Assembly: GCA_015491865.1 (NCBI GenBank)
Contig: WFVD01000026.1
Span: 124,001 to 188,000, forward strand
Origin: Gammaproteobacteria bacterium
Lineage (GTDB): Bacteria; Pseudomonadota; Gammaproteobacteria; SZUA-140
DNA length: 64,000 bases
Direction: 5' to 3'
The notes under the pieces were generated by a model. It saw nothing but the letters and a program-made list of their open reading frames with translations. It searched no databases and was not told the origin of the DNA. The position numbers and the translations under genes are program-made. Positions 19,665-40,489 of this stretch are shown here, piece after piece; positions within the stretch are counted from its first letter, which is position 1; each line of letters starts with the position of its first letter.

Positions 19665-20472
19665 GCTGCCAGAGGTCGAGACCACGCGGGCAGGTATTGA
19701 GCCGCATCTGGTTGGCGAGGTGGTTACTGCAGTAAAGGCCTATCAGCGGCAGCTGCGCCGTCCGGTGAGTGCAAGGCTGGCAACGGCGCTGAAGGGTGGC
19801 ATGTTTGAATCTGTGACGCGCCGAGGCAAATATCTGTTACTGAAAAGTGGCCGTGGTAGTGTGATTATTCACCTTGGGATGTCCGGCAGCCTGCGTCTGG
19901 TGGCTGAAGGTGTCGTGCTAGAAAAACACGATCATGTTGAATTTTTTCTGGCGAGCGGAGGGTCGTTACGCTATCGCGACCCACGCCGTTTCGGGCTGGT
20001 GCTGTGGACGGCAAAAGATCCACTGCAACACCCTCTCATTGCGAAGCTTGGGGTAGAGCCGCTGGCAGCGGCGTTTGATGCTGACTATCTTCACTCAATT
20101 GCACAACAGCGCAGTGTCGCAATTAAACAATTGATTATGAATGGCCAGGTAGTGGTGGGTGTGGGGAATATCTACGCCAGCGAGGCGCTGTTTCGTGCCG
20201 GGGTTCATCCAGCGCGGGCGGCGAAGCGACTCTCACGCGCGCGCTGCGAACGACTGGTGAGCGCAATCAGGGCAGTGTTATCGGAGGCGATCAAGCAGGG
20301 CGGCACGACACTGCGCGATTTTTATAATGGCGCGGGCGAGCCTGGGTACTTTAAACAGCGCCTGCAGGTCTATGGTCGCGGTGGCGAGCCGTGCGTGAGT
20401 TGTGGCGCTGCTATTCGTCAGACTGTGCAGGGGCAGCGCTCCACCTGGTACTGCGGGCGCTGCCAGCGTTAG
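19657..20472 (+). CDS. mutM: Formamidopyrimidine-DNA glycosylase
   Basis: MutM/Fpg removes 8-oxoguanine and formamidopyrimidines from DNA. The start ATG at 19657 gives the obligatory MPELPEVET N-terminus with the catalytic Pro2 and Glu3; an upstream in-frame ATG would destroy this. HLGMSGSLR, the VGNIYASEALF helix-two-turn-helix, and a C-terminal zinc finger with four cysteines (CVSCG and WYCGRC) are all present. It overlaps the DUF4340-type gene and converges on a membrane protein gene with 4 shared bases. Confidence 0.96.
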   Translation: MPELPEVETTRAGIEPHLVGEVVTAVKAYQRQLRRPVSARLATALKGGMFESVTRRGKYLLLKSGRGSVIIHLGMSGSLRLVAEGVVLEKHDHVEFFLASGGSLRYRDPRRFGLVLWTAKDPLQHPLIAKLGVEPLAAAFDADYLHSIAQQRSVAIKQLIMNGQVVVGVGNIYASEALFRAGVHPARAAKRLSRARCERLVSAIRAVLSEAIKQGGTTLRDFYNGAGEPGYFKQRLQVYGRGGEPCVSCGAAIRQTVQGQRSTWYCGRCQR

Positions 20473-21926
20473 CCCTCAGTTTTGGTGGTTGCTGCTTCGC
20501 TTTCTGTTGTATGTGATGGTGATTCAAGCGGCGCTATTGGAGCCTTTTTAATGCGGATCACAACCCCCGCCTCCTGAAGTGACAGCGTCTCGGCAATACC
20601 GCTGAGCTCCGATATGTTTTTACTTAACCCCAAGTTCTCCTCCAGTGTGTGGTCAAATATCAGATGTGTGATGCCTTTAATGCTGCTCAGGAATTCCGCG
20701 CTATCTTCCCTGGCGTAGGGCAGTGGAAAAACGTCGCGACGGGTCGCCAGCATGGTGCGTGCAGGCCACTGACTCGCAGCCTGGAAAGGGGCATCAGGGT
20801 CGGCGGCTTCAACCGCCAGCTGATGGATGATGTCATCGGTTGGGGAGAGAAGCTCGCTTTTCAGGATCTGTCGATACTGTTTGTCTGCCAGCATAAAAGC
20901 GGTACTGACAATGAATAGCACAACAATGACGATACCGCGCTGTCCCATCAAACTGTTACTGCTAAAGGACTGGTTGAACGTAACGAGCAGTGCCATGCCG
21001 CGAAAAAGCAGCAGCGCAATGGCGATCATTGCCCACTCTGGAGTCGCCGCAACAAGGCCGACAAGTACGGCGAATAGCAGCGCGCTGCCCATCAGATCGT
21101 TGAGTAGAAATGCCCGGTCGCGAATGATAACGATAACGAGCAGTAGCGCAACGACCAGTCCGATAAGCCAGCTTGCTGGCTCACCAAATCCAATCGCACC
21201 GTTCTGAATGGCGTTGGCCAGGGTGGCGAGTGGGTCACTAAACCAGACGATATCTTTCTGCCAGCCATTCTGGAAAGTAAGAATGAGTGGGATTGCAATT
21301 GCAAGCCCAACGAGTATCTGTCTTTGCTGGGTCTTGTTGAGCGGGTCTCTGATCCACAACCAGGCCAGTGCAAGCGCATAGCCAAGCCCTGCCGGGTGCA
21401 GGCTCACAGCGGTGATGACCACTAACAGTTGTACGAAGAACCAGCCGCCTAGTGGGCGTGGCTTGGCGCGATAGGTATTACTTACCCACAGGCCGATGCC
21501 AAAGGTGAGCAGCAGCATCGGGCCAGTACCGATCGAACTGATCTGGGTAATGGTCAGCGGGCAGATCAGCAGCAGCGCTGTCGCCATCAGGGCAGATTCA
21601 TGATTTTCTCTTCGCGCCCAGTAATAGAGAAACATTGTGCCAAAAAAAGCGAGCATGGCGGTGAATATTTTGGTGGCAAGCATGCTACCGGACCAGTAGA
21701 TCGCGACGGGTAGCAGCAGAATGGCACGCATATCCGGGGTACCAAAGGTAGCGACAGGATTGGCGATTCGGTCCACTATCGACCAGAGAAATAGAAGTGC
21801 TTTTGCGGCCCCTTCATTAAGCCCATAAGGGGTCAGGTTGATGAGATTAAACCCCCAGAAAAGTGCGGCAATCCAGACAGCGAGTATAATCAGTCTCAGG
21901 TATTTTTCAGGGATGGCGACTCGCAT
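20469..21926 (-). CDS. Polytopic membrane protein, possibly PMT/ArnT-like glycosyltransferase
   Basis: This 485-residue protein has roughly eleven hydrophobic segments, then a C-terminal soluble part of about 140 residues. The first loop (INLTPYGLNEGAAKAL) and the alternating short-loop membrane pattern resemble GT-C fold (PMT/ArnT-like) transferases, but a catalytic acidic motif is not clear. ATG at 21926 has GGAGAG just upstream and is preferred over a TTG at 21959. Function is unproven. Confidence 0.6.
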   Translation of the reverse strand: MRVAIPEKYLRLIILAVWIAALFWGFNLINLTPYGLNEGAAKALLFLWSIVDRIANPVATFGTPDMRAILLLPVAIYWSGSMLATKIFTAMLAFFGTMFLYYWARRENHESALMATALLLICPLTITQISSIGTGPMLLLTFGIGLWVSNTYRAKPRPLGGWFFVQLLVVITAVSLHPAGLGYALALAWLWIRDPLNKTQQRQILVGLAIAIPLILTFQNGWQKDIVWFSDPLATLANAIQNGAIGFGEPASWLIGLVVALLLVIVIIRDRAFLLNDLMGSALLFAVLVGLVAATPEWAMIAIALLLFRGMALLVTFNQSFSSNSLMGQRGIVIVVLFIVSTAFMLADKQYRQILKSELLSPTDDIIHQLAVEAADPDAPFQAASQWPARTMLATRRDVFPLPYAREDSAEFLSSIKGITHLIFDHTLEENLGLSKNISELSGIAETLSLQEAGVVIRIKKAPIAPLESPSHTTESEAATTKTEG

Positions 21927-22094
21927 GTTCTCTCCAGCGTAAGTAGTTTTATCTTTCAAAATGCAGGTTTGGCAGGTATCGACGTTAAGGTAGAGAACCC
22001 CTGCGGGTGTAGAAATAAAAATGCCTCAGCACTTAAAGGCTATTAATGGGGCTTGATGGTTTCGTTCGACTTTTTTGGTGTTCTTTAAAGTAGA

Positions 22095-22939: not shown

Positions 22940-23674
22940 ATGCGTAGGTACTTAATATCGATGTCAGCTTTGGCGTTTGTTGCAGGCACGCTTGCACCAA
23001 CAGCGGCTATGGCATCCGCTCAGTACTCAAAAGGTGATGGAAACGTTAGTAATGGTAAAACCATATATGAACAGGGGAAGGGTGATGTCCCTGCCTGTAA
23101 TTCATGCCACGGTGTTGATGGCAACGGTGATGATAATATGGGGACACCGCGTCTAGCGGGACAGGGTTTTACTTTCCTGTTGAAACAACTGGAAGATTTT
23201 GCAACAGATAAGCGTATGGATGAAACGATGTTCGTGATGAATGCCAATGCAAAAGGCATGAGTCCACAGGATCGTCGTGATGTGGCTACTTATCTTGCGC
23301 AAAAGCAAGATGCTTTTGCTGGTTCAAACCTTAAAGAGCTAGCTGCTAATGGTGTCGTTACAGGTAAAACCAACTTCGGAAAATCACTTGTTGAAATTGG
23401 TAGCCCAGAGCTTTCTGCATGTAAGTCATGTCACGGTTATGCAGGTCGAGGTGCACCACCTATCTATCCTGTAATTCTGAATCAGCGTTATACCTATCTG
23501 GTCAGTCAGCTGAAGAAGTTCCGTGATGGAAGTCGTGCAAATGATCCAATGGGTCAGATGCGTGCAATTGCCAGGAAGATGTCTGATGATGACATCAACA
23601 ATGCTGCTGCATATCTGACTTCTGCCGAGAGAAGCACGCCAGGCAATCCACAGACTCCTTATACAATCCACTAA
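22940..23674 (+). CDS. Diheme cytochrome c4-like protein
   Basis: This is a 244-residue secreted protein with a signal peptide (cleavage near AMASAQ). Two class I cytochrome domains follow, each with a heme site: CNSCH at about 53-57 and CKSCH in the second half. Each half has the c4-like MSPQDRRDVATYLA / MSDDDINNAAAYLT helix. Cytochromes c4 are periplasmic electron carriers that can donate to cbb3 oxidases. GGAGGGG precedes ATG 22940. A strong terminator follows, so it ends its own transcript. Confidence 0.92.
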   Translation: MRRYLISMSALAFVAGTLAPTAAMASAQYSKGDGNVSNGKTIYEQGKGDVPACNSCHGVDGNGDDNMGTPRLAGQGFTFLLKQLEDFATDKRMDETMFVMNANAKGMSPQDRRDVATYLAQKQDAFAGSNLKELAANGVVTGKTNFGKSLVEIGSPELSACKSCHGYAGRGAPPIYPVILNQRYTYLVSQLKKFRDGSRANDPMGQMRAIARKMSDDDINNAAAYLTSAERSTPGNPQTPYTIH

Positions 23675-23775: not shown

Positions 23776-24435
23776 ATGGGGCTCACCAAACGAATTGGTA
23801 ATATTCCTGGTATGGCAAAAAAGCAACCCCTGAAGTCCGGTGAGAAGATATTGTTAGGTATATTCGGTGCCTTCTTCTGTCTCGCCGCGATTGGTTATGT
23901 CGTGCTGGAAAGTGTTCGCCTGACTTCTGAGAAGCCGATGTTTACTCAGACAACCTTTTTTAATTTTTCCGAAGAAGGGAAAATCGGTCATGGTTACTAC
24001 ATGAAGGCGAACTGTAATGCATGTCACCGTGCAGTACGGAGTGGTACCAGTATGGGGCTGTCATTAGATGGAATTGGCTCGAAAAGAAGTATTGACTGGT
24101 TGGAGCAGTTTTTATTAGAACCTGAGCGTGTTTACGAAGGGCCAACGATTGACCATGGCGTTGGGAAAGAGGCTGGTAACATTATTGCCAGGCTTTCTGA
24201 AGATAAGATTAGACCTATCGCTGTCTTTCTTTCTGAACTAAAAGCCGTGGCAGGCTCATCAGTCTCCAAAGTCCCGCCGCCGGAGCGTTCTGAATTTATC
24301 GATGGAATGGTTGGTTCATGGGCTCCAGAAGGGTGGAAAGAAAAATATGAAGATGTTCGCGATCGTATCAAGCGTGAAGAAGGAGAGGCGGCAGATCGTG
24401 ATGCTGCGGATGAAGAGGTGATCGATGCGCGCTAG
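23776..24435 (+). CDS. Membrane-anchored monoheme cytochrome c
   Basis: This 219-residue protein has one N-terminal membrane helix (about 25-47), then one heme site NCNACH and a C-terminal acidic tail. After the heme it carries SLDGIGSKRSIDWLEQFL, a motif shared with the cytochrome at 31252-31743, so the two are paralogues. It overlaps the short heme-copper-oxidase-like gene by 11 bases, which suggests that they work together in electron transfer. The axial methionine is not certain. Confidence 0.82.
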   Translation: MGLTKRIGNIPGMAKKQPLKSGEKILLGIFGAFFCLAAIGYVVLESVRLTSEKPMFTQTTFFNFSEEGKIGHGYYMKANCNACHRAVRSGTSMGLSLDGIGSKRSIDWLEQFLLEPERVYEGPTIDHGVGKEAGNIIARLSEDKIRPIAVFLSELKAVAGSSVSKVPPPERSEFIDGMVGSWAPEGWKEKYEDVRDRIKREEGEAADRDAADEEVIDAR

Positions 24436-24964
24436 ACCCTGGACGCATGAACAAGAGCAGGATTACCGTAAATATACCCTCTGGTTTATTTATGCCTGTG
24501 TGATTTACAGTATTATAGGTTTCTCATGGGGTGTGATTGTTGGTATGTTCCCTGATTTAAGGGAATTCATTAATCATCGCCCTCATGGTAACCTGATTAT
24601 GCTGGGCCATGGTCACCTTAATCTGCTTGGCTGGGTAGAGATGGCCATATTTGGCTCGATTTACTACATTATTCCTCGCCTGGTCAGGCGACCAATTTAT
24701 AGTTTTAAACTGGTGCGTATTCACTTTTGGATGCATAATTTTGGTTTGCTTGGAATGGTGGTGTCATTTGTTGCTGCTGGTGTGATGGGTGGCATGGCGA
24801 GTATGTCGATGTCTCCAGCTGAGACCAGTGAAATTGTCCGTCCCATAATGATTACTGTCGGTATGTTTGGTCTTCTTGTGCTGTCGGCGAATATTATTTG
24901 GGGCTTTAATATTTTCCGCACCTGCATGGGCTGGGAGAAAGATTATGTTCGAGATTGTAAATAA
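24425..24964 (+). CDS. Short heme-copper-oxidase subunit I-like protein (four helices)
   Basis: This 179-residue integral membrane protein has four helices. The second carries LGHGHLNLLGW and is followed by IPRLVRRPIYS and IHFW. That order resembles the CcoN segment with the H-x-H heme ligands (AHAHLALLG, then RRKLYS and FHYW, in the CcoN at 27169-28578). The protein covers only about one third of a normal subunit I and lacks CuB ligands, so it cannot be an oxidase by itself. It may bind heme as a redox or assembly subunit. A relative lies at 39962-40489. Confidence 0.7.
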   Translation: MRARPWTHEQEQDYRKYTLWFIYACVIYSIIGFSWGVIVGMFPDLREFINHRPHGNLIMLGHGHLNLLGWVEMAIFGSIYYIIPRLVRRPIYSFKLVRIHFWMHNFGLLGMVVSFVAAGVMGGMASMSMSPAETSEIVRPIMITVGMFGLLVLSANIIWGFNIFRTCMGWEKDYVRDCK

Positions 24965-25460
24965 GACAACCCGGCTGTTTGTCGTCGCTTTTGTGGTGGT
25001 CGGACTTAACGGTTGTTTTGAATTTGATGCCTCAACGCTGAAGATTGGCCAGCAAGCGCCTATTATGAAAACAAAGACACTTGCTGATGTTGACGGTGAT
25101 TTTAGCCGGATTACTAGTTATCGCTATCCAGATGAACGCATGTATCAGTATTCCCTTGATGATGCACTGGCACAGGGGAAGCCAGTCATTGTTGAGTTTG
25201 CAACGCCAGGGCACTGTACCGTCTGTGATAAGCAGCTTCAGGTTTTGAAGGGGATCTTAAACAAATATGAGTCTGAAATAATTATAGTACACATGGATCA
25301 ATACCAGAACCCAGAGGCTTTTATTGAGTATAAAGTCACGGGTGACCCGTGGACTTTTGTTATCGATAAGAACCAGAAAGTGGTCTTTAAGCGCCCCGGG
25401 CGCCTGCTTTACCAGGAAATCGATAAAGCACTGCAGCCACTATTAGCAGTCCAGAGTTAA
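24945..25460 (+). CDS. Thioredoxin-fold lipoprotein
   Basis: This 171-residue protein has a lipobox (VVGLNGC) after a short signal helix. The thioredoxin-like domain has the redox motif CTVC in FATPGHCTVCDKQL, and a later cis-proline region VTGDPWTFVID. TlpA/ResA-like proteins of this kind reduce apocytochrome cysteines or serve oxidase copper-site assembly. ATG at 24945 lies inside the end of the previous gene (20-base overlap). The longer open frame upstream is not used because the signal helix begins here. Confidence 0.8.
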   Translation: MFEIVNKTTRLFVVAFVVVGLNGCFEFDASTLKIGQQAPIMKTKTLADVDGDFSRITSYRYPDERMYQYSLDDALAQGKPVIVEFATPGHCTVCDKQLQVLKGILNKYESEIIIVHMDQYQNPEAFIEYKVTGDPWTFVIDKNQKVVFKRPGRLLYQEIDKALQPLLAVQS

Positions 25461-25478: not shown

Positions 25479-25937
25479 GTGGCTAAAAAGCAGTATCGTG
25501 TTGAGCTGGTTCAGGACAGGAAAGGGATGTACTGGGATCTGGCGCTCTATGTGCCGACAGTTATTTTCCTGGTCTCAATCGCATTAAAAATGTGGTATAC
25601 AGCTGATAAAAACTGGGCATACCTTTTGATGTTTATGGCATCATTCTTTCTATTGGCAGGCGCTAATCGAATACTGAAATCGCGAATGATGTTAACCGGC
25701 TCATCGCCAATAAGTATCGATGTTGATAAGCAGCGAATAGCCTTTGGTCTGCGAAATGGTGAGAAGGTTGAGCTTGTTAAAGGGGCTCGATTTTTTCCTG
25801 ATTTCGCCGGAAAGAGCTTTGCGATTACCGGGATCGATCTTAATGGTAAGAAGTGTCAGTACGTATTTCATCGTGGGCAATTTGCGGATGAAAGCGAATA
25901 CAAAGAGCTGCGAGAGTTTCTGCGTATTTACGGTTAG
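25479..25937 (+). CDS. Membrane protein of unknown function
   Basis: I do not recognise this 152-residue protein. Two adjacent membrane helices (about 22-40 and 47-65) are followed by a soluble domain with alternating strands (GSSPISIDVDKQRIAFGLR; FAITGIDLNGKKCQYVF). This resembles the two-helix plus PH-like layout of some inner-membrane proteins. GTG at 25479 is the only reasonable start. It closes the cytochrome, short oxidase-like and thioredoxin-like gene run. Confidence 0.6.
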   Translation: MAKKQYRVELVQDRKGMYWDLALYVPTVIFLVSIALKMWYTADKNWAYLLMFMASFFLLAGANRILKSRMMLTGSSPISIDVDKQRIAFGLRNGEKVELVKGARFFPDFAGKSFAITGIDLNGKKCQYVFHRGQFADESEYKELREFLRIYG

Positions 25938-27168: not shown

Positions 27169-28578
27169 ATGCTAATTAAATATCTATTTGCGAAAAACGA
27201 AGATATACCGGCAGGTTCGTCGTCGGTATTCTTTGGTTTTTCAGCAATTTTTTGGTTTGTAATAGGGACTGGGCTAGGTTCCTTTAATGCCGCCAAGCTG
27301 GCATTTCCGGACTGGGTTACTGGTACGGAAATGTTTGCTTTTGGTCACATGCGCCAGGTGCATGTACTAGCTGTCATTCTTGGCTGGATTTCAATGGCGT
27401 TCGCAATGACCATGATGTACATGACTCCAGCGCTGGGTAACACCAAGCTGTGGTCTGAAAAACTGGGTCTCTGGAATGCGTTCCTATGGAATGTTGGCCT
27501 GAGTCTTGGTCTTTTTCTATTGTGGATGGGGATTACATCTGGTCGTGAATATTCAGATCTGATCTGGCCGATCGATATTGTGGTCTTCCTTGGTGTACTG
27601 CTTCCGCTGGGTATTAACGTCTGGATGACCATTGCACATCGTAGAACCCAGGGTATCTATATTACCAACTGGTTCTTCGGTGCTTGTATCTTTATGGTAA
27701 TGGTTGTATTCGCGGTAGGTCAGTCTCCAGAGCTATTCAACTTGACTGGCTTAACAGAAGCGTACATGACTTTCTGGTTTGCCCATAACGTACTTGGTCT
27801 ATGGATTACGCCAGTTGCAGCAGCGATTGCTTATTACACCATTCCAAAGTTGACCGGTAACCCACTCTATTCACATAGAATTGGTCATCTGCATTTCTGG
27901 TCAATCATCGCGTTCTACTCAACACCAGCGTCGCATCACCTGATGTCTGCCCCACTGCCTGAATGGTTGAAGTCATTCGCATCTGTAGAAGGTGTTTTGA
28001 TTCTGATCCCGGCAGTAGCATTCGTAGCTAACATCTTGCTGACAATGAAAGGCAAATGGAGCATGTTTGTTGAGAATGTTGAGACCAAGTTCTCTATTAC
28101 TGGTGTTCTGCTTGCTATTCCTTTGAATATGCAGGGTGGTTTCCAGCAGACTCGTGCGATCAACTGGTACGTCCATGGTACTGGCTGGATTGTGGCTCAC
28201 GCTCATCTGGCACTGCTTGGTATGTCTACATTCCTGGAAATCGCGGCTGTATACTTCGGTCTTCAGCAGATCCTGAGAAGAAAACTTTACTCTCTGGCGC
28301 TTGCTAATTTCCATTACTGGTTCGTTCTGATCGGCTTTTGTATCTACTGGATCTCAATGACTATTGCTGGTCTGATTCAGGGCGCAGGGAAGATCTACGA
28401 AGTACCATACATTGACGTGGTGGTTGCAGAACATCCATACATGATCGCTCGTTGGGTTGGCGGTACAATGGTATTTACCGGTAACCTGGTATGGCTCTAC
28501 AACATGTACATGACCGCTCGCGAAGGAACCGTAGTTCCAGCTGGTCGTTATGCCCACGAGATGGCTTACGAACGCTAG
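27169..28578 (+). CDS. ccoN: Divergent C-family heme-copper oxidase subunit I (CcoN-like)
   Basis: This 469-residue protein with about 12 helices is the catalytic subunit. H65 (MRQVHVLAVILGW) and H346 would ligate low-spin heme b, H344 the high-spin heme, and H206 (FAHN), H256 and H257 (SHHL) the CuB site. Y250 stands six residues before H256, where C-family oxidases have their His-linked tyrosine. Positions match Pseudomonas stutzeri CcoN almost without gaps, yet Q322 replaces its conserved Glu. Family placement is firm. O2 reduction is favoured by the tyrosine, but an NO-reducing branch of the family is not excluded. GGAGGAGAGGG precedes the ATG. Confidence 0.88.
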   Translation: MLIKYLFAKNEDIPAGSSSVFFGFSAIFWFVIGTGLGSFNAAKLAFPDWVTGTEMFAFGHMRQVHVLAVILGWISMAFAMTMMYMTPALGNTKLWSEKLGLWNAFLWNVGLSLGLFLLWMGITSGREYSDLIWPIDIVVFLGVLLPLGINVWMTIAHRRTQGIYITNWFFGACIFMVMVVFAVGQSPELFNLTGLTEAYMTFWFAHNVLGLWITPVAAAIAYYTIPKLTGNPLYSHRIGHLHFWSIIAFYSTPASHHLMSAPLPEWLKSFASVEGVLILIPAVAFVANILLTMKGKWSMFVENVETKFSITGVLLAIPLNMQGGFQQTRAINWYVHGTGWIVAHAHLALLGMSTFLEIAAVYFGLQQILRRKLYSLALANFHYWFVLIGFCIYWISMTIAGLIQGAGKIYEVPYIDVVVAEHPYMIARWVGGTMVFTGNLVWLYNMYMTAREGTVVPAGRYAHEMAYER

Positions 28579-28671
28579 AAGCTAGCTTTAGTAAATCGTC
28601 GTACATATCCCCTTCTCTCAGTGAGGGTCGAGAGAAGGGGGATAAAAAAGATAAATGGGAGGGTTTTAAAC

Positions 28672-29628
28672 GTGGCATTTCAACAACATAAATTAGGGGC
28701 AGCGGCTATCGGGGGGATGTTAGGTCTCTCGATGTGTATTACGCTAATGTTTCCAAGTTTTGACTTTCGTTCAGCGGAGTCAACTTGGGTTGGTCTGGAT
28801 AAGTCATTATCTAATGGCCGTGTAATTGGCTTTAGTTACGAAGATCCACTTGTGACCGGTGCGGGTAAGCCTATCACAGTGATTTTGGACAAAGATCCAA
28901 AAACTGGAGAGAAAATTGATCCGCCAATGCGTGCTTATGTCTATGAGCCGGGTGTGCCATTCGCACCAGCTGTCCGTCATCCAGCTAATACTGGGCCAAC
29001 GGTGAGCCAGTTGAGTTTGAATCTTGGAAAAATGGGTGAGGCAAGTGAAGCTCAGGGCGCTGTTTTCGGTATTAATCGCGGTGAAGTTAATGGCAAAGAC
29101 TGGGATTACATTGAAAATCTAACAGCACTCAAAGGCTGGACACCAGCTGATACTCTGCGTGCTGCATCAGATGAAAATACCCGCTACGTCGGTAAAGGCA
29201 AGACGGTCTACATCACTGAGGGTTGCTGGTGGTGTCATACACTACTACCTGAGCAGACACAAGACTGGCAGATCTTTGGTGCTCCACCAATGCTAGGCGA
29301 TTTCAACGGTGAAATGCCAACAGCTTTTGGTTCTGACCGCAAGGCTCCTGATATCCTTCATGTAGCTTCACGTAACTCATCAAGAGAATGGATGGATATG
29401 CATTTCTTCAATCCACGTCTTGTTCAGCCAAACTCAATCATGCCGCGTTTTGATTACCTTTGGGGTGAGACAGATGCACATGGCAACAAGATTGATTTTG
29501 ACAAGTGGCGTGCAGAGTATAAGGAATACCGAGCTGGAACTAGGATCTATCCACCTGAAATTCCAGAATATGCAGGTAATTCTGAAGCACGTGCGCTCGT
29601 TGACTGGATCCTGACGAGTCTCAAGTAA
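28672..29628 (+). CDS. ccoO: CcoO-like monoheme cytochrome c subunit
   Basis: This 318-residue protein has one N-terminal membrane anchor (about 8-28) and one heme site CWWCH (185-189), then the CcoO-type order GSDRKAPDILHVASRN and FNPRLVQPNSIMP, where M257 is the likely axial ligand. It is the membrane cytochrome partner of CcoN. The start is GTG 28672 with GGGAGGG upstream; ATG 28621 is less likely because it has no ribosome site. It is longer than usual between anchor and heme. No ccoP gene follows. Confidence 0.87.
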   Translation: MAFQQHKLGAAAIGGMLGLSMCITLMFPSFDFRSAESTWVGLDKSLSNGRVIGFSYEDPLVTGAGKPITVILDKDPKTGEKIDPPMRAYVYEPGVPFAPAVRHPANTGPTVSQLSLNLGKMGEASEAQGAVFGINRGEVNGKDWDYIENLTALKGWTPADTLRAASDENTRYVGKGKTVYITEGCWWCHTLLPEQTQDWQIFGAPPMLGDFNGEMPTAFGSDRKAPDILHVASRNSSREWMDMHFFNPRLVQPNSIMPRFDYLWGETDAHGNKIDFDKWRAEYKEYRAGTRIYPPEIPEYAGNSEARALVDWILTSLK

Positions 29629-29647: not shown

Positions 29648-30283
29648 ATGGCTATTAAATTTGACCAACCGTTCTACTCTCTCTCTGATGAGGCTGAGCA
29701 GAACAGAATAATTGAACTTTGGGAGGCCGAGAAACATGGTGGGCTTTGGGAGGGTAATAATCGCTTACCATTTCCATTAACGTTTCTTATGGGCCTGATC
29801 ATTTTGACTGCGTTCATGATCACAATGCCAATTTGGGGGCAACGTCCGACTGCACATGACTTTGTTGAGCATGTGGCTCTGATGGATTCCCCTGAAATCC
29901 AGGCGATTGAAGATCCTGCCGCCAAAATGGCTAAAATCGATGAGATCGCCTATCAACGTGCAGATTCTCGTGTGAAGGCATCATTGGAACGTCACCCTAT
30001 TTCGTGGGATGATCTTCTCAATATTGCACCTCACATCAAAGAAGCACAGGCATCCGGTAAATACCCACTAGATTACTACTCAGTACTAGGTGACAAAATT
30101 GTACTGGCTAACTTTGAAGGCAATCCAACAGCTGATGGTTCTCCAGAAAGAAAGCAACCCTGGTGGGATACTGGTTACACTATTGATGTTTTTTATGTGA
30201 CTTACTTTATTCTTTTTGCATTCTTTGTCACTAAGCGCCTGCCGCACTTCAGCCGCAAGCCTGATATGTCAAATGCCAAGTAA
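29648..30283 (+). CDS. Two-helix membrane protein of the ccoNO operon
   Basis: This 211-residue protein has a helix at about 43-63 ending in MPIWGQRP, a hydrophilic domain of about 100 residues, then PWWDTGYTIDVFYVTYF with a second helix. It occupies the place where ccoQ/ccoP are normally found but has no heme motif. The PxWGxRP ending of helix 1 recurs in the protein at 38532-38969 beside ccoG. GGGGAG precedes the ATG. Probably a structural subunit; no family recognised. Confidence 0.6.
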   Translation: MAIKFDQPFYSLSDEAEQNRIIELWEAEKHGGLWEGNNRLPFPLTFLMGLIILTAFMITMPIWGQRPTAHDFVEHVALMDSPEIQAIEDPAAKMAKIDEIAYQRADSRVKASLERHPISWDDLLNIAPHIKEAQASGKYPLDYYSVLGDKIVLANFEGNPTADGSPERKQPWWDTGYTIDVFYVTYFILFAFFVTKRLPHFSRKPDMSNAK

Positions 30284-30974: not shown

Positions 30975-31265
30975 GTGAAAGAATATATACAATCATTACC
31001 TGATGGGTGGACGATATATTTATGGATGGTAGCTGCGGCAGGCATACTGATTGGCGCTGCTTTCCTATTACGCTGGGGTTTTAAAAACAACCAGTTTGAC
31101 GAAGACATTAAGTATGTCGTATTTGATGATGACGATGTTGATAAAATGAGTGATGAAGATTTTAAGAAGAGCAAGGAAGTACAGCAGAAGCAGGAAAATC
31201 TGCGTGAAGAAGTGTTAAGGAAGCGCGCAGAGCAGAAGCAAGCAAAAAATAATGAAAAAAGGTGA
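30975..31265 (+). CDS. CcoS-like cbb3 assembly protein with extended tail
   Basis: In this 96-residue protein one helix (about 14-33) is followed by RWGFKNNQFDEDIKYVVFDD. This matches the CcoS pattern of helix, then W-x-x-K/R-x-x-QFDD and an acidic DDD end. CcoS helps insert cofactors into cbb3 oxidases. After it comes an unusual charged coiled tail (SKEVQQKQENLREEVLRK) absent from ordinary CcoS. GTG at 30975. It overlaps the next cytochrome gene by 14 bases. Confidence 0.65.
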   Translation: MKEYIQSLPDGWTIYLWMVAAAGILIGAAFLLRWGFKNNQFDEDIKYVVFDDDDVDKMSDEDFKKSKEVQQKQENLREEVLRKRAEQKQAKNNEKR

Positions 31266-31743
31266 GAAGTTAATCTTTGCTCTTATTGGGCTAATCGCAG
31301 TTGTATCGGTTGTTTATCAGGGGTGGCAGGTTGCAAATGTCACAGAAGAAGATCCTGGAATTCCTTATTATTCGACTGCCTCAAATGAGCTTAGTGATAA
31401 AGCAGGAAAACTTATAAGAAAGCACTCGTGTAGAGAGTGCCATAAGATTTTCTTTTTAAATGATCTGACACAAAATGTCCCCTCGCCTTCATTGGATGGG
31501 ATTGGCTCTTTACGAACTGAGGAGTGGTTGTATAACTATTTCTCGGCTGAGAATCCTCAGGAAATAGTTCCAAGTCGATTGAAGCAGCGTTTTCAGATGC
31601 CTTCACTTGCTCATCTACCAGAAGAAGATCGTCGGGTATTAGCTGCATACATGGCTAGCCTGAAGGTCGAAGACTGGTACCTGGAAGAGACACGCAAGGC
31701 TGCATATGAAAAACGTACAGGTAAAGAGTATCAACCAGAGTAG
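31252..31743 (+). CDS. Membrane-anchored monoheme cytochrome c (paralogue)
   Basis: This 163-residue protein has an N-terminal anchor (MKKGEKLIFALIGLIAVVSV), one heme site CRECH, then SLDGIGSLRTEEWLYNYF and FQMPSLAHLPEEDRRVLAAY, where the Met is the probable axial ligand. The GIGS-x-R-x-x-x-WL motif and the KxGEK start are shared with the cytochrome at 23776-24435. It is a likely electron donor or subunit for the CcoN-like enzyme, replacing CcoP. Confidence 0.82.
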   Translation: MKKGEKLIFALIGLIAVVSVVYQGWQVANVTEEDPGIPYYSTASNELSDKAGKLIRKHSCRECHKIFFLNDLTQNVPSPSLDGIGSLRTEEWLYNYFSAENPQEIVPSRLKQRFQMPSLAHLPEEDRRVLAAYMASLKVEDWYLEETRKAAYEKRTGKEYQPE

Positions 31744-32281: not shown

Positions 32282-33337
32282 ATGAATAGATTTAAACACC
32301 AGGCTCCGCTGACAAAAGAACAGCGACTGATACGTAAACGTTATATAGGTGCAACTTTTGTTACCTGTATTGTCTTATCGCTAGTGGGTGGCACAATTCA
32401 TGTGCTTGAGCTAGGGTCGAACCGCATGCACGACATGCGAGATAAGGCGGGAATTGACCTTGCGCTTGAGCATGACCATATTCGAGCAGCGGGTGAAGAG
32501 TTGTTTGTTCAGGTTGATTTCGAATTTGGAGACATACAACAGGCGAGTTATACGGTCGAAGAGGCTGCGGCGCTGTTAACACCGGAGCAATGGGCCGAAT
32601 TAGAGACGATGATTGATATTCCGGCAGGCGAATTTCTGATGGGGACGAATCGAAAACAATCCAATGTATATAACCGGCCGCAAAATGTTGTTAAAACAGA
32701 TGCCTATCGGATTGATAAATACCCGGTTACAAATGCGCAGTATGCCCGTTTTGTTGCGGCAACAAATCATCGACCTCCGTTACACTGGAAGGATGGCAAG
32801 ATTGCCGAGGGGCTGGAGCTTCACCCCGTTACGATGGTCTCCTGGAAAAATGCATCCGATTATGCAGCCTGGGCAGGAAAGCGACTGCCAACAGAAGCTG
32901 AATGGGAAAAGGCTGCTCGCGGTACAGAAGGCTACCGATGGCCGTGGGGAAACCACATGGATGCCGAGCGACTGAATACTTACTATAGTGTCGGCAGCAC
33001 CACGCCATATAACGCCTACCCAAATGGAGCAAGCCCATATGGTGTGATGGATATGGCCGGTAATGTTAGTGAGTGGACGGCTGATGACTTTACCGCTTAC
33101 ATGGGAAGTGCTGCGCCTAGCAGTATTTTTAAAGTAAGAAAAGCCAAAGAGCCCAGGCAGGGGCCAGCCAAAGCGATGAAGATGGCTGAGTTCGAAGAGA
33201 CAGATGAGCGTTATAAAGTACTACGCGGTGGTTCGTGGAAGAGCGATCCTTTCTCAACTGCGACATACCACCGCAACTATGCATGGCCTAATTTCGCATC
33301 TGATTTCTTTGGATTTCGTTGCGCCCAGACACCGTAA
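32282..33337 (+). CDS. Membrane-anchored SUMF1/FGE-fold protein
   Basis: This 351-residue protein has one helix at about 21-42, a short linker, then a formylglycine-generating-enzyme-type domain (about 110-351). Family marks are IPAGEFLMGTN, YPVTNAQYARFV, RLPTEAEWEKAARG, MDMAGNVSEW, YKVLRGGSW and FFGFRCA. The paired catalytic cysteines of true FGE are absent: YHRNY stands where CYRYRC is found in the human enzyme. Sulfatase activation is therefore unlikely. SUMF1-fold proteins such as NirV occur in denitrification clusters, and the role here may be maturation or a structural subunit. Confidence 0.8.
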   Translation: MNRFKHQAPLTKEQRLIRKRYIGATFVTCIVLSLVGGTIHVLELGSNRMHDMRDKAGIDLALEHDHIRAAGEELFVQVDFEFGDIQQASYTVEEAAALLTPEQWAELETMIDIPAGEFLMGTNRKQSNVYNRPQNVVKTDAYRIDKYPVTNAQYARFVAATNHRPPLHWKDGKIAEGLELHPVTMVSWKNASDYAAWAGKRLPTEAEWEKAARGTEGYRWPWGNHMDAERLNTYYSVGSTTPYNAYPNGASPYGVMDMAGNVSEWTADDFTAYMGSAAPSSIFKVRKAKEPRQGPAKAMKMAEFEETDERYKVLRGGSWKSDPFSTATYHRNYAWPNFASDFFGFRCAQTP

Positions 33338-33993: not shown

Positions 33994-34149
33994 TGAGCTT
34001 CTTTGTGCAGTCGCCGTAGTTGTGTCACCCTGGACTCGCTGCTACGCTAATCCGTTTGCACTAGCGCCCACGTTCAGCATTTAGTGGCGCTGGCTGACCA
34101 GGGGATAGGCGGGTTAAGTTTGTTATATTCATTTCAAAAAAGAAGTGCA

Positions 34150-36747
34150 ATGTGGGCGTGGAGCCTTGCAATTGTCTATGCCCTCTCTGGCATGGCCGCG
34201 CTCTCCTATGAAGTGCTGTGGGCGCGCATGCTGTCACTTCAGTTTGGGGTCAGTATCTTCGGTATTGTGGTCACTGTTTCAGCCTTTATGGCGGGACTCG
34301 GTAGCGGCAGCCTAGTGGGCGCGCGTCTGGTGCAGTTCCTGCGTAACCCACTTTTAATCCTGGTGCTACTGGAAGTAGCCGTTGCAATGTTTGCATGGTT
34401 CACACCACAGCTTTTTCAGGCACTTGATCTATGGCTGGGGATTGGTGTCGCAGGAGGCGGTCTGTCTCAGTGGTATGCGTTGCAAGGGGTGGTTGTTTTT
34501 GTAGTGCTGTTTATCCCCGCCTTTGCACTGGGGCTTGGCTTTCCGCTTGTGCTCTCAATGATCACTGGCAGTGCTGTCTCCCTGAGTAAAATTTATGCGT
34601 TGAACACACTGGGCGGCGCATTCGGCGCACTGTTGCCACTTGGATTGTTACCACTGTTTGGCTGGACGGTATCGATTCGCCTGGTTGCTATTCTGGGGCT
34701 CGTTGTTGCAGTGATGCTCTTTCTGCTATCACGAGCGGTAAAGGCGGAGCCTTGCGACCATGCCGGCGCGGGCTCCCGTACAGAGTGGCTTGCTATTCGC
34801 TACCTGTTGGCGTATGCAGGCATCGGCGCCGCAGCGTTGATGCTGCAGGTGGCGTGGACACGCCTGTTCGGCATGATACTACTGCGTACAGAATATGTGA
34901 TGGCGGTGATGCTCGCAATCTTCTTGATGGGGATTGCACTGGGTAGTGCGCTGGTGAGGCAGCGCGCTTCCCAGCGATGGCTGTCGTTGCTGCCGATGAT
35001 CGCCGCATCGTTTACGATGCTGAGTCTGTGGGGGTTGCCATTACTTGCGCAGTGGGCTGAGCATACAGAGTATGAGTCGCTGTTTGATGCGCTCTGGTGG
35101 CAGTCGATCGCATTGGTACTGTTAACCTTACCGGTAACACTCGCACTGGGTGCCTGGTTACCATTACTGGCTGCACATCATCAGGTGGAGGATGCGGCAC
35201 AAAGCCGCTCGATCGGTGCGCAGTTATACGGTGCCAATTCTGTTGGTGCTGCGCTGGGTGCCATTGTGACCGGGTTTCTGCTCCTGCCGCTACTAGGCGC
35301 GCCGGGGACGATAGTGTTTGCTGGCTTGGCGCTGTTTCTCTGTGGCATGATCTGGGTGAAATCCCCGCGGCTCTGGTTAGCGGTTCTGCTGGTGATTGCG
35401 CTGGCACTCCCGGTGGTGCAACTACCGGCGGTAAATGTGTTGCTACCGCGCACCCAGGCTGACACTAAAGACCTTTTTCGGTACGAAGATGCCGTCTCAA
35501 TCACGCATGTGATCGAACGAGAGGATGGTCAGCGGCTACTGCTGGGGGATCTGCAGCGGATGGATGCCTCATCTGACCCAGCAGCCGTAGTGGCGCAGAT
35601 GAATCAGGCCCGTCTGCCGCTGTTGCTCCACCCCGCCCCCGAGTCGGTGCTGTTTCTTGGGATCGGCACCGCCATCTCTGCTGCCGGCTCGCTCCCCTAT
35701 CCAGCCCTGGCTCGCACAGGGGTAGAGTTGTCGCAGGGGGCGATTGATGCCGCGGCCCAGTTTTTTCAGCCAGTGAATGGCAGGGTGATGGAGCAGATGC
35801 GCATTATCCGTGATGATGCGCGCCGTTTTCTACGCGCCGACAATGAACACTACGATGTCATTATTGGTGACCTCTTTCATCCGGATCTCGTTGGGCGTAG
35901 TGCACTGCTCTCCGTACAGCAGTTTGAGCGAGCGAAAGAGCGCCTGAATGAAGGTGGCCTGTTTGTCCAGTGGCTGGCCTTGAATCAGTTCGATGTCCGT
36001 TCGATGAGCATTGTGCTGCGCAGTTTTGAGCAGGTTTTCCCTCAGGCAGTACTCTTTCTGGATGGCTTCAGGGTGGGGTTGGTCGGCCCACGAGATCAAT
36101 TTGGTGGCGCGCCCGCAGTGTTGGCAAATCTGCAACGCCTCAGTGCTAAACAGCAAGCGGCAGTAACGGGCGACGAAGGCAGCTGGAGCTGGCTGGGGCG
36201 TTTCTGGGGTAAAATCAACGAGGGAGAGGGGGTGGTGCAGGATGAGTGGGCACCACAGCTCGAATACGCCCTCCCCAGGCTGCGTTTTAGTGGTGGTGAT
36301 GCATTACCGCAGCTACTGGTATCGCTGCTGGATGAGCGCCCCTCGCTATCTGAAGCGATGGTACTGCTGCAGGTGGCTGAAGGAGAGCGAGCCGCGTTTG
36401 AGCGTAGCTACGTCGCGACGGGGCTGGCGGTGCAGAGCTGGCTGGCCTCGCTTCAGGGGGATAGCCGTGAGGCGCAGCGGTTGATGCGATTTGCCTATGA
36501 GGCGAATCCTGAAGATCGCTGGATCGGTTTTGACCTTGCCGACGCGATGTGGGTGACAGTTTCCAATAGGGTGGCGCAGGGAGGTGATGAGCGTCACTCT
36601 CTACAGGCGATTTTACAGGTGCGCCCTGACCATGAACAGGCGCTGAAAGCGATGTGGCAGCTGGAGCTGCGCGAGGGCAACCTGGCGCAGGCGGAGGCTT
36701 ATCGAGCGAAGCTGAAGGCGATCAGTCCGCTGGGGAGAGGCGCCTGA
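34150..36747 (+). CDS. Polytopic membrane protein with spermidine-synthase-like domain
   Basis: This protein of about 865 residues has twelve-plus helices in the N-terminal half, with LSYEVLWARMLSLQFG and ALNTLGGAFGALL. A soluble SpeE-like domain follows, with SAM-fold motifs VLFLGIGTAIS, GVELSQGAIDAA and YDVIIGDLFHPD. The C-terminal region looks TPR-like. This is the fused transporter/spermidine-synthase-like family whose substrate is generally unknown. ATG 34150 is chosen over a GTG at 34084 because the helix begins there. It is GC-richer than the preceding cluster. Confidence 0.8.
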   Translation: MWAWSLAIVYALSGMAALSYEVLWARMLSLQFGVSIFGIVVTVSAFMAGLGSGSLVGARLVQFLRNPLLILVLLEVAVAMFAWFTPQLFQALDLWLGIGVAGGGLSQWYALQGVVVFVVLFIPAFALGLGFPLVLSMITGSAVSLSKIYALNTLGGAFGALLPLGLLPLFGWTVSIRLVAILGLVVAVMLFLLSRAVKAEPCDHAGAGSRTEWLAIRYLLAYAGIGAAALMLQVAWTRLFGMILLRTEYVMAVMLAIFLMGIALGSALVRQRASQRWLSLLPMIAASFTMLSLWGLPLLAQWAEHTEYESLFDALWWQSIALVLLTLPVTLALGAWLPLLAAHHQVEDAAQSRSIGAQLYGANSVGAALGAIVTGFLLLPLLGAPGTIVFAGLALFLCGMIWVKSPRLWLAVLLVIALALPVVQLPAVNVLLPRTQADTKDLFRYEDAVSITHVIEREDGQRLLLGDLQRMDASSDPAAVVAQMNQARLPLLLHPAPESVLFLGIGTAISAAGSLPYPALARTGVELSQGAIDAAAQFFQPVNGRVMEQMRIIRDDARRFLRADNEHYDVIIGDLFHPDLVGRSALLSVQQFERAKERLNEGGLFVQWLALNQFDVRSMSIVLRSFEQVFPQAVLFLDGFRVGLVGPRDQFGGAPAVLANLQRLSAKQQAAVTGDEGSWSWLGRFWGKINEGEGVVQDEWAPQLEYALPRLRFSGGDALPQLLVSLLDERPSLSEAMVLLQVAEGERAAFERSYVATGLAVQSWLASLQGDSREAQRLMRFAYEANPEDRWIGFDLADAMWVTVSNRVAQGGDERHSLQAILQVRPDHEQALKAMWQLELREGNLAQAEAYRAKLKAISPLGRGA

Positions 36748-37215: not shown

Positions 37216-38529
37216 ATGCGTGCCAACGAAGTTTTGAGTAAAATTCAGGTGGTCTCAACCGGGCCAAAATCGGCATCCCCACAACAAGGGTTACATTGGA
37301 AGAATCGCCTGGTTCGATTTGGCTTTATCGCGATATTGATTTTAACGCCGGTACTGGGGATCTTCCGTATCGATGTCTCCTCCGGTTTTGTCATCCTTGG
37401 GCGGCAGGTCTGGTTTGCTGACTTTTTTCTGGTCTTCGGTTTCTGGTTAACGGCCGCTTGCCTGCTTGTCATTATGTATTCGATGCTGGGGACAGTCTTT
37501 TGTGGCTGGGCCTGCCCACAGAACACATTCTCGACCTGGGCGAATAGTGTGACCGAAAAGCATCTGGGCAAGCGAGCGGTGATCGACTGGAATAATGAGA
37601 TGTCAGCACGCATCGCTAACGCCAAAAATAGATGGGGCAACTGGGCGTTACTGAGCATCAAAATGTTGCTGGTTTCGATGTTGCTGGCGCTGATTCCGAT
37701 GCTCTATTTTAATTCGCCAGGCGCAATCTGGTCGTTCATTACGTTCCAGGAGGATGAGCGGCTGGCCGGTTCACTGTACTGGATCTACACCGTATTTGTC
37801 TTTATCGCCCTGGTTAATCTCGCCGTGATTCGTCACTTCATGTGCCGCTATATGTGCATCTATCGCATGTGGCAATACCTGTTTAAAACGCGCGACACCC
37901 TCCATGTGGAATATGACGAGTCGCGCTCAAGTGAATGTGACAAGTGTAATTACTGTGTCACCTCATGTATGGTAAACATCGACCCGCGCCAAACCAGGAC
38001 CTATGATAGCTGTACTAATTGTGGTGAGTGCATCACCGCCTGTAATAAGCTACACGAGAAAAAAGAGACAGAGGGGTTGTTGAGGTTGAAGTTTGGTCAG
38101 CGTAAAAACCTGACCGCAGCCGATGCAGAAAAATTGACTAGTGGTAAACAGCGCGCACTGCTGATTACTCCCATCTTCCTGCTGGGGCTAGGGCTTTTCC
38201 TCTGGGGGTTGTGGTCCTATCAACCCTACCAGTTAACGGTCTACCGTGCTGAGATTATGCATGGCCAGCAGGTCTCAGATTATCGAGTGAATATTGCCAA
38301 CAAGCGCTATGACCCCGCGTCGCTAAAGATTGAGGTTGAAGGGCTGGATAAAGCACTCTATTCGTTGGATACAAGTCAGCTGGTGTTTGATACCGCTGGC
38401 CGTAAAGATGTTAATTTGAGGATTAAAGGTGGCCTGCCAGAGGGGTTGACAACATTTATTGTACGGGTGACGGCGGACGATGGTTGGACCGCGCATTACC
38501 GGATACAGCATTTAGTAGATCGGGGGTAG
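37216..38529 (+). CDS. ccoG: Cbb3 oxidase accessory protein CcoG (4Fe-4S)
   Basis: This 437-residue membrane ferredoxin has CGWACPQ, five or six helices, and two CxxCxxCxxxC clusters: CDKCNYCVTSC and CTNCGECITAC, each closed by a proline-type loop. A C-terminal immunoglobulin-like domain follows. CcoG (RdxA/FixG) reduces copper for cbb3 assembly. It begins a transcript with a two-helix protein and a lipoprotein, and supports the view that the CcoN-like enzyme nearby uses cbb3-type maturation. ccoI is not in the window. Confidence 0.93.
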   Translation: MRANEVLSKIQVVSTGPKSASPQQGLHWKNRLVRFGFIAILILTPVLGIFRIDVSSGFVILGRQVWFADFFLVFGFWLTAACLLVIMYSMLGTVFCGWACPQNTFSTWANSVTEKHLGKRAVIDWNNEMSARIANAKNRWGNWALLSIKMLLVSMLLALIPMLYFNSPGAIWSFITFQEDERLAGSLYWIYTVFVFIALVNLAVIRHFMCRYMCIYRMWQYLFKTRDTLHVEYDESRSSECDKCNYCVTSCMVNIDPRQTRTYDSCTNCGECITACNKLHEKKETEGLLRLKFGQRKNLTAADAEKLTSGKQRALLITPIFLLGLGLFLWGLWSYQPYQLTVYRAEIMHGQQVSDYRVNIANKRYDPASLKIEVEGLDKALYSLDTSQLVFDTAGRKDVNLRIKGGLPEGLTTFIVRVTADDGWTAHYRIQHLVDRG

Positions 38530-39464: not shown

Positions 39465-39965
39465 TTATTTGCGTTTCAATCCAGGGGCATCCAGCCAGCG
39501 GCGCATTAGCATGATGCGGTCATTGCCTTCTGTTTTCTGGCAGCGCGGGCAGTTGAGGTGAACAAGGTAGAGCTCTTTGGGACGCTTGCCTGACTCGATC
39601 AGGCCGATCGACATCTCGCGCACCGGCACCTGCAGGGTACCCACATTGCCCTTGTGAATCTGAACCCGCAGATTGAATGGTGCCGGCAGGTAGCTAATGC
39701 GACGTGATGCCGAGCGGCTATGTTTTAACAGGCGAATCCGTTTGCCGCGAAACATGCCGGTACGGTTGAGCGCCAGCCCTGGCCACTCCTCTTCCAGTTC
39801 CAGGTTCTCAATCTCTGTCTGCTGGCGTTTGGCATAGAGCTCACTGGCGATCGGCATGTGCAAAAAACATGAGGTTGGCATGGTGTGAATGCACTGTCCA
39901 GCCAGGTCAACATCCTGATTGTGCCACTCAGGGTAGTCGTCGGGGCAGCCGCATTCACGGATCAT
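39465..39965 (-). CDS. Cys/His-rich protein coupled to a short oxidase-like gene
   Basis: This 166-residue soluble protein has a metal-site-like N-terminus (C5, C7, H15, C25, H27, C33, H36), a middle rich in Arg/Lys, and a CPRC pair with HLNCPRCQK near the end. No family recognised. Its start overlaps the stop of the short heme-copper-oxidase-like gene by 4 bases, so the two are made together. It may bind a metal or heme; this is inference. Confidence 0.5.
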   Translation of the reverse strand: MIRECGCPDDYPEWHNQDVDLAGQCIHTMPTSCFLHMPIASELYAKRQQTEIENLELEEEWPGLALNRTGMFRGKRIRLLKHSRSASRRISYLPAPFNLRVQIHKGNVGTLQVPVREMSIGLIESGKRPKELYLVHLNCPRCQKTEGNDRIMLMRRWLDAPGLKRK

Positions 39966-40489
39966 GGCTTTTTATAGACCTGTTTAACGGTGGCGAAAAC
40001 GTTAAAAAAGAAGACCCAGAAACCGACTCCCATTACAGTCGAAACAGTGGCGATGATCGGCTTGTAGATCTGATGCATCGCATCCATCCCCTCCAGGTCA
40101 CCGGCTAGCAGTAGATTTCCTTCCAGTGTGCCGAAGGTCATCAGGGTGCTGTAAAAACCGATCAGGCCGAGCGCAGTCCACCAGAAGGTGTGGAACACCA
40201 GGCGGCGCGACCATAACGCTACGCCAGAAATTTTCGGTAGCATATAGTAGGTGGCAGCCATGCAGAGGATCACCACGCCACCAATCACATTCATATGGGC
40301 ATGTGCTAGCGGGTCGATCATATGCCCCGGCCCGCCGTACGGGCTGCCGATGGAGTCGAGCCATGCGCGTACGGGTGGCTGAATCTGCCACACGCCATGC
40401 ACGGTACCCACCATAAAACAGAAGGTGGAAAAGAAGAGGAACTTGATGAGATCGCGATCTTCCGGATGTGAAACTTGCTGTGTAGTCAT
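39962..40489 (-). CDS. Short heme-copper-oxidase subunit I-like protein (second copy)
   Basis: This 175-residue protein has four helices. Helix 2 carries PLAHAHMNVIGGV and helix 3 starts VFHTFWW, in the same order as the short protein at 24425-24964 (LGHGHLNLLGW, IHFW). As with that protein, the H-x-H motif resembles the CcoN heme-ligand helix but CuB ligands are missing. It faces the ccoG run across the Cys-rich gene. Probably a heme-binding membrane subunit. Confidence 0.7.
   Translation of the reverse strand: MTTQQVSHPEDRDLIKFLFFSTFCFMVGTVHGVWQIQPPVRAWLDSIGSPYGGPGHMIDPLAHAHMNVIGGVVILCMAATYYMLPKISGVALWSRRLVFHTFWWTALGLIGFYSTLMTFGTLEGNLLLAGDLEGMDAMHQIYKPIIATVSTVMGVGFWVFFFNVFATVKQVYKKP

Follow-up and report, generated by a model that had tools for sequence, protein, structure and literature searches.

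A conserved pair of one-third-size heme-copper oxidase homologues tied to one cbb3-type oxidase

To our knowledge, subunit I of the heme-copper oxidases has always been treated as an indivisible twelve-helix unit. In CcoN, subunit I of the cbb3-type enzymes, two histidines of helix X serve hemes b3 and b, and the route from Cyc1 to oxygen in Zetaproteobacteria and the relatives of Ca. Tenderia is still a model. Structurally, heme b of CcoN sits at TMH2 and TMH10 (PMC7876108). According to the sections we cite of the following papers, Zetaproteobacteria have two cbb3 forms (PMC7029218), the distal cbb3 of Sideroxydans ES-1 differs in subunit composition and is highly expressed (PMC8788666), and a syntenic Cyc1 region occurs in Mariprofundus and Ca. 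Tenderia, with the Cyc1 region and a complex-IV homologue among the most highly expressed genes of related species (PMC5371394). The two short proteins that are our subject are not described as components in those sections of PMC5371394, PMC7029218 and PMC8788666; other literature on the Zetaproteobacteria cassette or the Tenderiales may mention them.

The window, that is, the whole stretch of 64,000 nucleotides that we analyzed, has the gene neighborhood and the type of partner cytochrome reported for the distal cbb3, or "complex IV-2", and Cyc1 region of Fe(II)-oxidizers and Ca. Tenderia (sections of PMC5371394, PMC7029218 and PMC8788666). Its oxidase cluster is probably of the distal form, judging from the synteny with Cyc1 and from a low similarity to canonical CcoN, and we use that term below in this sense. 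The features that matter here, including two short heme-copper oxidase (HCO) homologues that we call sHCO1 and sHCO2, are as follows.

22940-23674 (+): diheme c4-type cytochrome, in the position and of the type of Cyc1 of Fe(II)-oxidizers (named after sections of PMC5371394 and PMC7029218)
23776-24435 (+): membrane-anchored monoheme cytochrome c (CNACH), overlapping the start of sHCO1 by 11 nt
24425-24964 (+): sHCO1, 179 aa, four-helix homologue of the CcoN C-terminal third, with H62-x-H64 in helix 2, E72 in the middle of helix 2 and H100/H104 in helix 3
24945-25460 (+): thioredoxin-like lipoprotein with CTVC; its ATG, a start read from the sequence, lies within the end of sHCO1 (20-nt overlap)
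25479-25937 (+): conserved two-helix membrane protein (2TM), always next in order
27169-28578 (+): distal cbb3-type CcoN, full length, 469 aa; by alignment to 3mk7 every heme and CuB ligand is present, as is the cross-link Tyr
28621-29628 (+): CcoO-like monoheme c subunit, 335 aa, with a long extra N-terminal region before CWWCH
29648-30283 (+): membrane protein, 211 aa, with hydrophobic termini, conserved after ccoO
30975-31265 (+): FixS/CcoS-like small protein, below cut-off
31252-31743 (+): second membrane-anchored monoheme cytochrome c
37216-38529 (+): CcoG/FixG-like polyferredoxin, near sHCO2
39962-40489 (-): sHCO2, second four-helix homologue of a CcoN third, 175 aa, with an HAHMN motif

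An earlier note on this DNA had described a four-helix protein resembling one third of a heme-copper oxidase, in which LGHGHLNLLGW, RRPIYS and IHFW (residues 60-70, 88-93 and 99-102) reproduce the H-x-H helix and the following helix of CcoN, and which has no CuB ligands. This description holds. The open reading frame runs exactly from 24425 to 24964 (+), and the resemblance to CcoN is far beyond chance: sHCO1 matches Pfam COX1 (PF00115; E 9.3e-18, 64.7 bits against a cut-off of 34.8) at profile positions 304-433 only, and the C-terminal third alone of the TIGR00780 ccoN model (E 2.4e-16, 59.7 bits; the curated score of this CcoN equivalog is 583 bits, which sHCO1 does not reach), while a PDB search returned cbb3 CcoN chains at E 4e-14 and, more weakly but in register, also matched their other two repeats. 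The likeness extends to the motif GHxHxxxLGWxxM...YxxxPRL...IYSxxLVxxHFW of CcoN (FixN) helices X-XII, and sHCO1 is a homologue of CcoN helices IX/X-XII. It differs from CcoN in having four helices rather than the twelve of the three-repeat subunit I core (PF00115), in lacking the helix-II heme ligand and the cross-link Tyr, and in possessing an invariant E72 and H104 without counterparts in the alignment; the CuB ligand set (three histidines, the helix-VI His and the helix-VII HH) and the catalytic centre are likewise absent from its sequence. Structure prediction for sHCO1 alone (AlphaFold2 with 68 orthologues) gave four long helices at residues 11-41, 55-87, 94-125 and 131-167 with a mean pLDDT of 88.4 and a pTM of 0.81, the confidence being lowest around the start of the H-x-H helix. 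Foldseek searches with this model yielded no match at E < 0.001; they ranked cbb3 CcoN on top (prob 1.00, TMq 0.51-0.55, E 0.008), followed by NORs and aa3 oxidases. We regard homology and fold as established.

Of 36 orthologues gathered without motif selection, which avoids the bias of the loci found by patterns, all 36 keep H62, H64, E72, H100 and H104, and the segment N66-F76, which spans every face of helix 2, is just as invariant. A fully invariant helix 2 suggests burial inside a complex. Could sHCO1 be a broken piece of CcoN? We reject this, as a complete CcoN is present, sHCO1 has its own start, stop and first helix, and its dN/dS relative to congeners is about 0.02. Membership in the small-protein family DUF2871 (PF11070) was also rejected: the weak similarity extends over 128 residues (E 0.013 for sHCO1 of the window, 1.9e-4 for an orthologue), but the score of 16.2 bits is under the curated gathering score of 27.4. 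NorB of cNOR and qNOR has a homologous fold, and the HxNLL motif of sHCO1 helix 2 resembles NorB helix II, but the similarity is much lower (score 40-47) and sHCO1 is without catalytic residues.

Where did such a protein come from? The earlier note had offered a relic of the ancestral repeat unit as one possibility, that is, a four-helix protein predating the threefold fusion of subunit I, and it can be said in favor of this idea that sHCO1 shows a detectable similarity, in register, to each of the CcoN repeats. A relic would be expected to stand at roughly the same distance from all three. When slices were compared by hhalign, sHCO1 against single repeats of subunit I, it scored 133 with the third repeat of canonical CcoN, its best profile match, and 108 with that of distal CcoN, but only 27-58 with repeats 1 and 2. 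It is also nearer to the cbb3 third repeat than are the third repeats of aa3 and NorB (75 and 75 against canonical CcoN), and the third repeats of distal and canonical (proximal) CcoN score 148 with each other. From these scores we conclude that the short proteins most likely split off inside the cbb3 lineage at a time when the repeats were already distinct. The same placement is seen in a maximum-likelihood tree, with weak support (65/58), and AU tests do not reject alternatives. The relic reading is therefore disfavored, and we consider it extremely improbable.

The window encodes a second protein of this kind, sHCO2, which had escaped the earlier note. Its score against PF00115 is just under the cut-off (33.6 versus 34.8 bits), its model superimposes on CcoN with a TMq of 0.71 over 170 columns, and its profile-profile score with sHCO1 is 97. 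To count the carriers of both short proteins and of CcoN we used one set of 274 genomes of the class, in which sHCO1 occurs in 24, distal ccoN in 22 and sHCO2 in 25. All 24 sHCO1 genomes have sHCO2 (Fisher p 1e-33), and 21 of the 24 have distal CcoN (Fisher p 3e-27); related genomes are not independent, which affects these p-values, yet sHCO1 is spread over 14 families. The three sHCO1 genomes without a CcoN match are broken assemblies: in one (G052) the edge of a contig truncates the CcoN frame, and in the others (G094 and G209) the contigs that carry sHCO1 are 3.6 and 6.9 kb long. sHCO1 is accordingly restricted to genomes with a distal cbb3 oxidase apart from such assemblies. Conversely, none of the 249 genomes that lack both CcoN and sHCO1 has sHCO2. 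The sole additional sHCO2 genome, G054, is also the one genome with CcoN and without sHCO1, and its single short HCO, which is closest to sHCO2, is encoded between a cytochrome c gene, which it overlaps, and ccoN. In the phylum sample, a second, sHCO1-like match accompanies the match to sHCO2 in most of the Zetaproteobacteria that have the latter, the families having been assigned to this class from the named loci; Mariprofundus erugo and a Ca. Tenderia MAG are among the carriers known by name. It is well supported, then, that sHCO1 is always accompanied by sHCO2 and one particular oxidase in the class sampled, and also in many iron-oxidizing Zetaproteobacteria. In the genome of the window (99.99% complete) the COX1-family proteins are three in total, sHCO1, sHCO2 and the full-length CcoN, so that the CcoN at 27169-28578 would be the sole heme-copper oxidase of the organism.

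The genes around sHCO1 are conserved as well. In 80 named loci, retrieved from contigs by the patterns WVEMAIF and Y[SA][IL]IGF[ST]WG and found in both Gamma- and Zetaproteobacteria, the order is cyc1, anchored monoheme cytochrome c, sHCO1, thioredoxin-like gene and 2TM gene, after which ccoN, ccoO and smaller genes usually come. The anchored cytochrome c gene is directly upstream of sHCO1 in 78/78 testable loci, the thioredoxin-like gene downstream in 79/79 and the 2TM gene present in 75/75; the reading frame of sHCO1 overlaps that of the cytochrome in 45/80 loci and that of the thioredoxin-like protein in 53/75. With NorC in mind as a relative of the anchored cytochrome, we searched the PDB, obtained weak cytochrome c matches only and rejected the idea. 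Linkage of the block to ccoN was seen in 57 of 67 testable loci (13 further loci are too short), and the 10 unlinked loci with enough sequence mean that sHCO1 is not an obligate member of the ccoN operon. Seven of these 10 form one group (L035-L041); in L035 the five-gene block is surrounded by unrelated genes. CcoN and sHCO2 are nevertheless present, on other contigs, in the two genomes searched from this group, G040 and G187.

That co-occurrence with ccoN persists even where sHCO1 is unlinked from it is what one might expect of an assembly factor. sHCO1 and sHCO2 might be membrane chaperones that hold or pass on heme, or that scaffold the folding of CcoN, together with the thioredoxin-like lipoprotein and the FixS-like and CcoG-like proteins, and there are neighbors of a maturation type: the CTVC lipoprotein is coupled to sHCO1, the CcoG-like protein is encoded beside sHCO2 and the FixS-like protein within the cluster. 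However, the tightest coupling of sHCO1 is with cytochromes c (all 78 loci, with overlapping genes), and the invariance of helix 2 on all faces is more like that of a permanently buried subunit. We rate a role in assembly as possible, if rather unlikely.

Does sHCO1 bind heme? Both of its termini and loop 2-3 carry a positive charge, unlike loop 3-4, a positive-inside pattern that indicates an N-in topology. This orientation puts H62 and H64 close to the periplasmic end of helix 2, where they occupy opposite faces like the histidines of CcoN helix X, and H100 and H104 in the cytoplasmic half of helix 3. We considered H104 as the partner ligand of H62/H64 and rejected it on topology, since helix 3 begins on the cytoplasmic side and H104 would lie about 20 A deeper (an estimate from 1.5 A per residue and the AlphaFold2 helix limits). 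By the same helix limits and the sequence, a single sHCO1 chain has no second intramembrane His at the depth of H62/H64. The low-spin heme of CcoN is bound between helices II and X, and hence between two repeats, of which sHCO1 has the helix-X-type H-x-H only; a lone repeat therefore cannot supply both ligands, and the heme b of sHCO1, if bound, would be at a subunit interface, where it is probably located.

The impossibility of two axial ligands at one depth from a single chain would equally suit a heme-free structural subunit, a four-helix module packed on CcoN in which the histidines are structural. Other oxidases do use extra membrane subunits, and the strict co-occurrence with CcoN is in keeping with such a role, but the H-x-H is kept in every orthologue of sHCO1 and of sHCO2 despite divergence to 24% identity between the two proteins, and we think this reading decidedly unlikely. 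The invariant H100, H104 and E72, which N-in topology places in the cytoplasmic half, raise another possibility, namely that these residues and a heme b near the periplasm link the anchored cytochrome c with the quinone pool as a cytochrome c:quinone (or quinol:c) module, for instance in uphill electron flow. sHCO1 is strictly tied to an oxidase, however, and bc1/ACIII is reported for that job in such organisms (a section of PMC7029218), so this is very unlikely.

We conclude that sHCO1 and sHCO2 are a real, conserved and under-described accessory pair, and that sHCO1 is probably an accessory subunit or partner of the electron-input module of the distal cbb3 oxidase, possibly carrying heme. 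The fuller version that we favor, and to which we give nearly but not quite an even chance, is that sHCO1 serves the adjacent oxidase as a dedicated membrane partner and acts on its electron-input side with sHCO2 and Cyc1. In this scheme the C-terminal third of a cbb3 CcoN would have been duplicated and truncated to give sHCO1, which would be co-produced with the membrane-anchored cytochrome c; H62/H64 of helix 2 and a histidine of a neighbor (another sHCO1 copy, sHCO2 or the oxidase) might form a bis-His heme b, and electrons would pass between the anchored cytochrome c and the oxidase. The association of sHCO1 with this oxidase across genomes and its origin are the well supported parts of the scheme; direct contact between the two and a redox role are inferred. 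The heme-binding subunit proposed in the earlier note is plausible, given the invariant periplasmic-side H-x-H, the translational coupling to a cytochrome c and the strict co-occurrence with cbb3, but the heme itself is something that we infer. Several observations count against the scheme: ccoN is unlinked in 10 loci, the thioredoxin-like, CcoG and FixS-like neighbors suit an assembly role equally well, and the adjacent CcoN has a full ligand set and no obvious need of another heme subunit. A more elaborate arrangement, which we regard as speculative and unlikely, would be an oligomer of sHCO1 and sHCO2 (homo-, hetero- or around CcoN) whose adjacent H-x-H helices clasp heme b, in effect a natural, present-day cytochrome b made from separate single repeats of the heme-copper oxidase fold, which would provide the respiratory complex of iron-oxidizing and related bacteria with an extra membrane heme relay.

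A conserved pair of single repeats tied to one oxidase would offer a natural minimal system in which to ask "Can one repeat bind heme?", and also by what route separate parts could have given the threefold fold. Moreover, the pair points to undescribed terminal-oxidase components in many iron-oxidizing Zetaproteobacteria and in relatives of the cathode-grown Ca. Tenderia.

Several further observations concern the relatives of this locus. The cluster of G054 that contains ccoN and the short HCO also encodes a candidate Cyc2-like fused cytochrome-porin (L131 9344-10882 (-), AVPAFARKFNVSCNVCH, 512 aa). A search of the genome of the window with this Cyc2-like query gave nothing at E 1e-5, and we therefore make no claim of iron oxidation for the organism. 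In the distal-type CcoN of G054 (L131 3990-5393 (-)) each of the three pseudo-symmetric helices bears an H-x-H (II has HVH, VI and X have HAH), a symmetry that is unusual for a subunit I. About 190 residues precede CWWCH in the CcoO-like protein of the window (28621-29628 (+)), and much of this region is missing from the G054 version (L131 3443-3964 (-), 173 aa in total). A still more divergent short HCO-like protein, in which only the second His of H-x-H is kept, is encoded in G291 (L191 6210-6749 (-)), on a 14-kb contig that has no ccoN and on which the neighbors resemble the products of 20469-21959 and 34084-36747 of the window. The former (-) is a 496-aa membrane protein beside cyc1; it has a relative in L035, adjoining the cyc1 block, and one in L191, adjoining the short HCO. 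The latter (+) is a multi-helix protein of 887 aa that contains a spermidine-synthase domain; its gene comes after the oxidase cluster, a position conserved in many gamma- and zetaproteobacterial loci. Overlapping the end of sHCO2 is a gene for a 166-aa protein with CPRCQK (39465-39965 (-)), which travels with sHCO2 in L049. Finally, a protein with an FGE-sulfatase domain (PF03781), resembling formylglycine-generating enzyme and having a hydrophobic N-terminal segment, is encoded inside the oxidase cluster (32282-33337 (+)) and is kept there in most loci with enough sequence.
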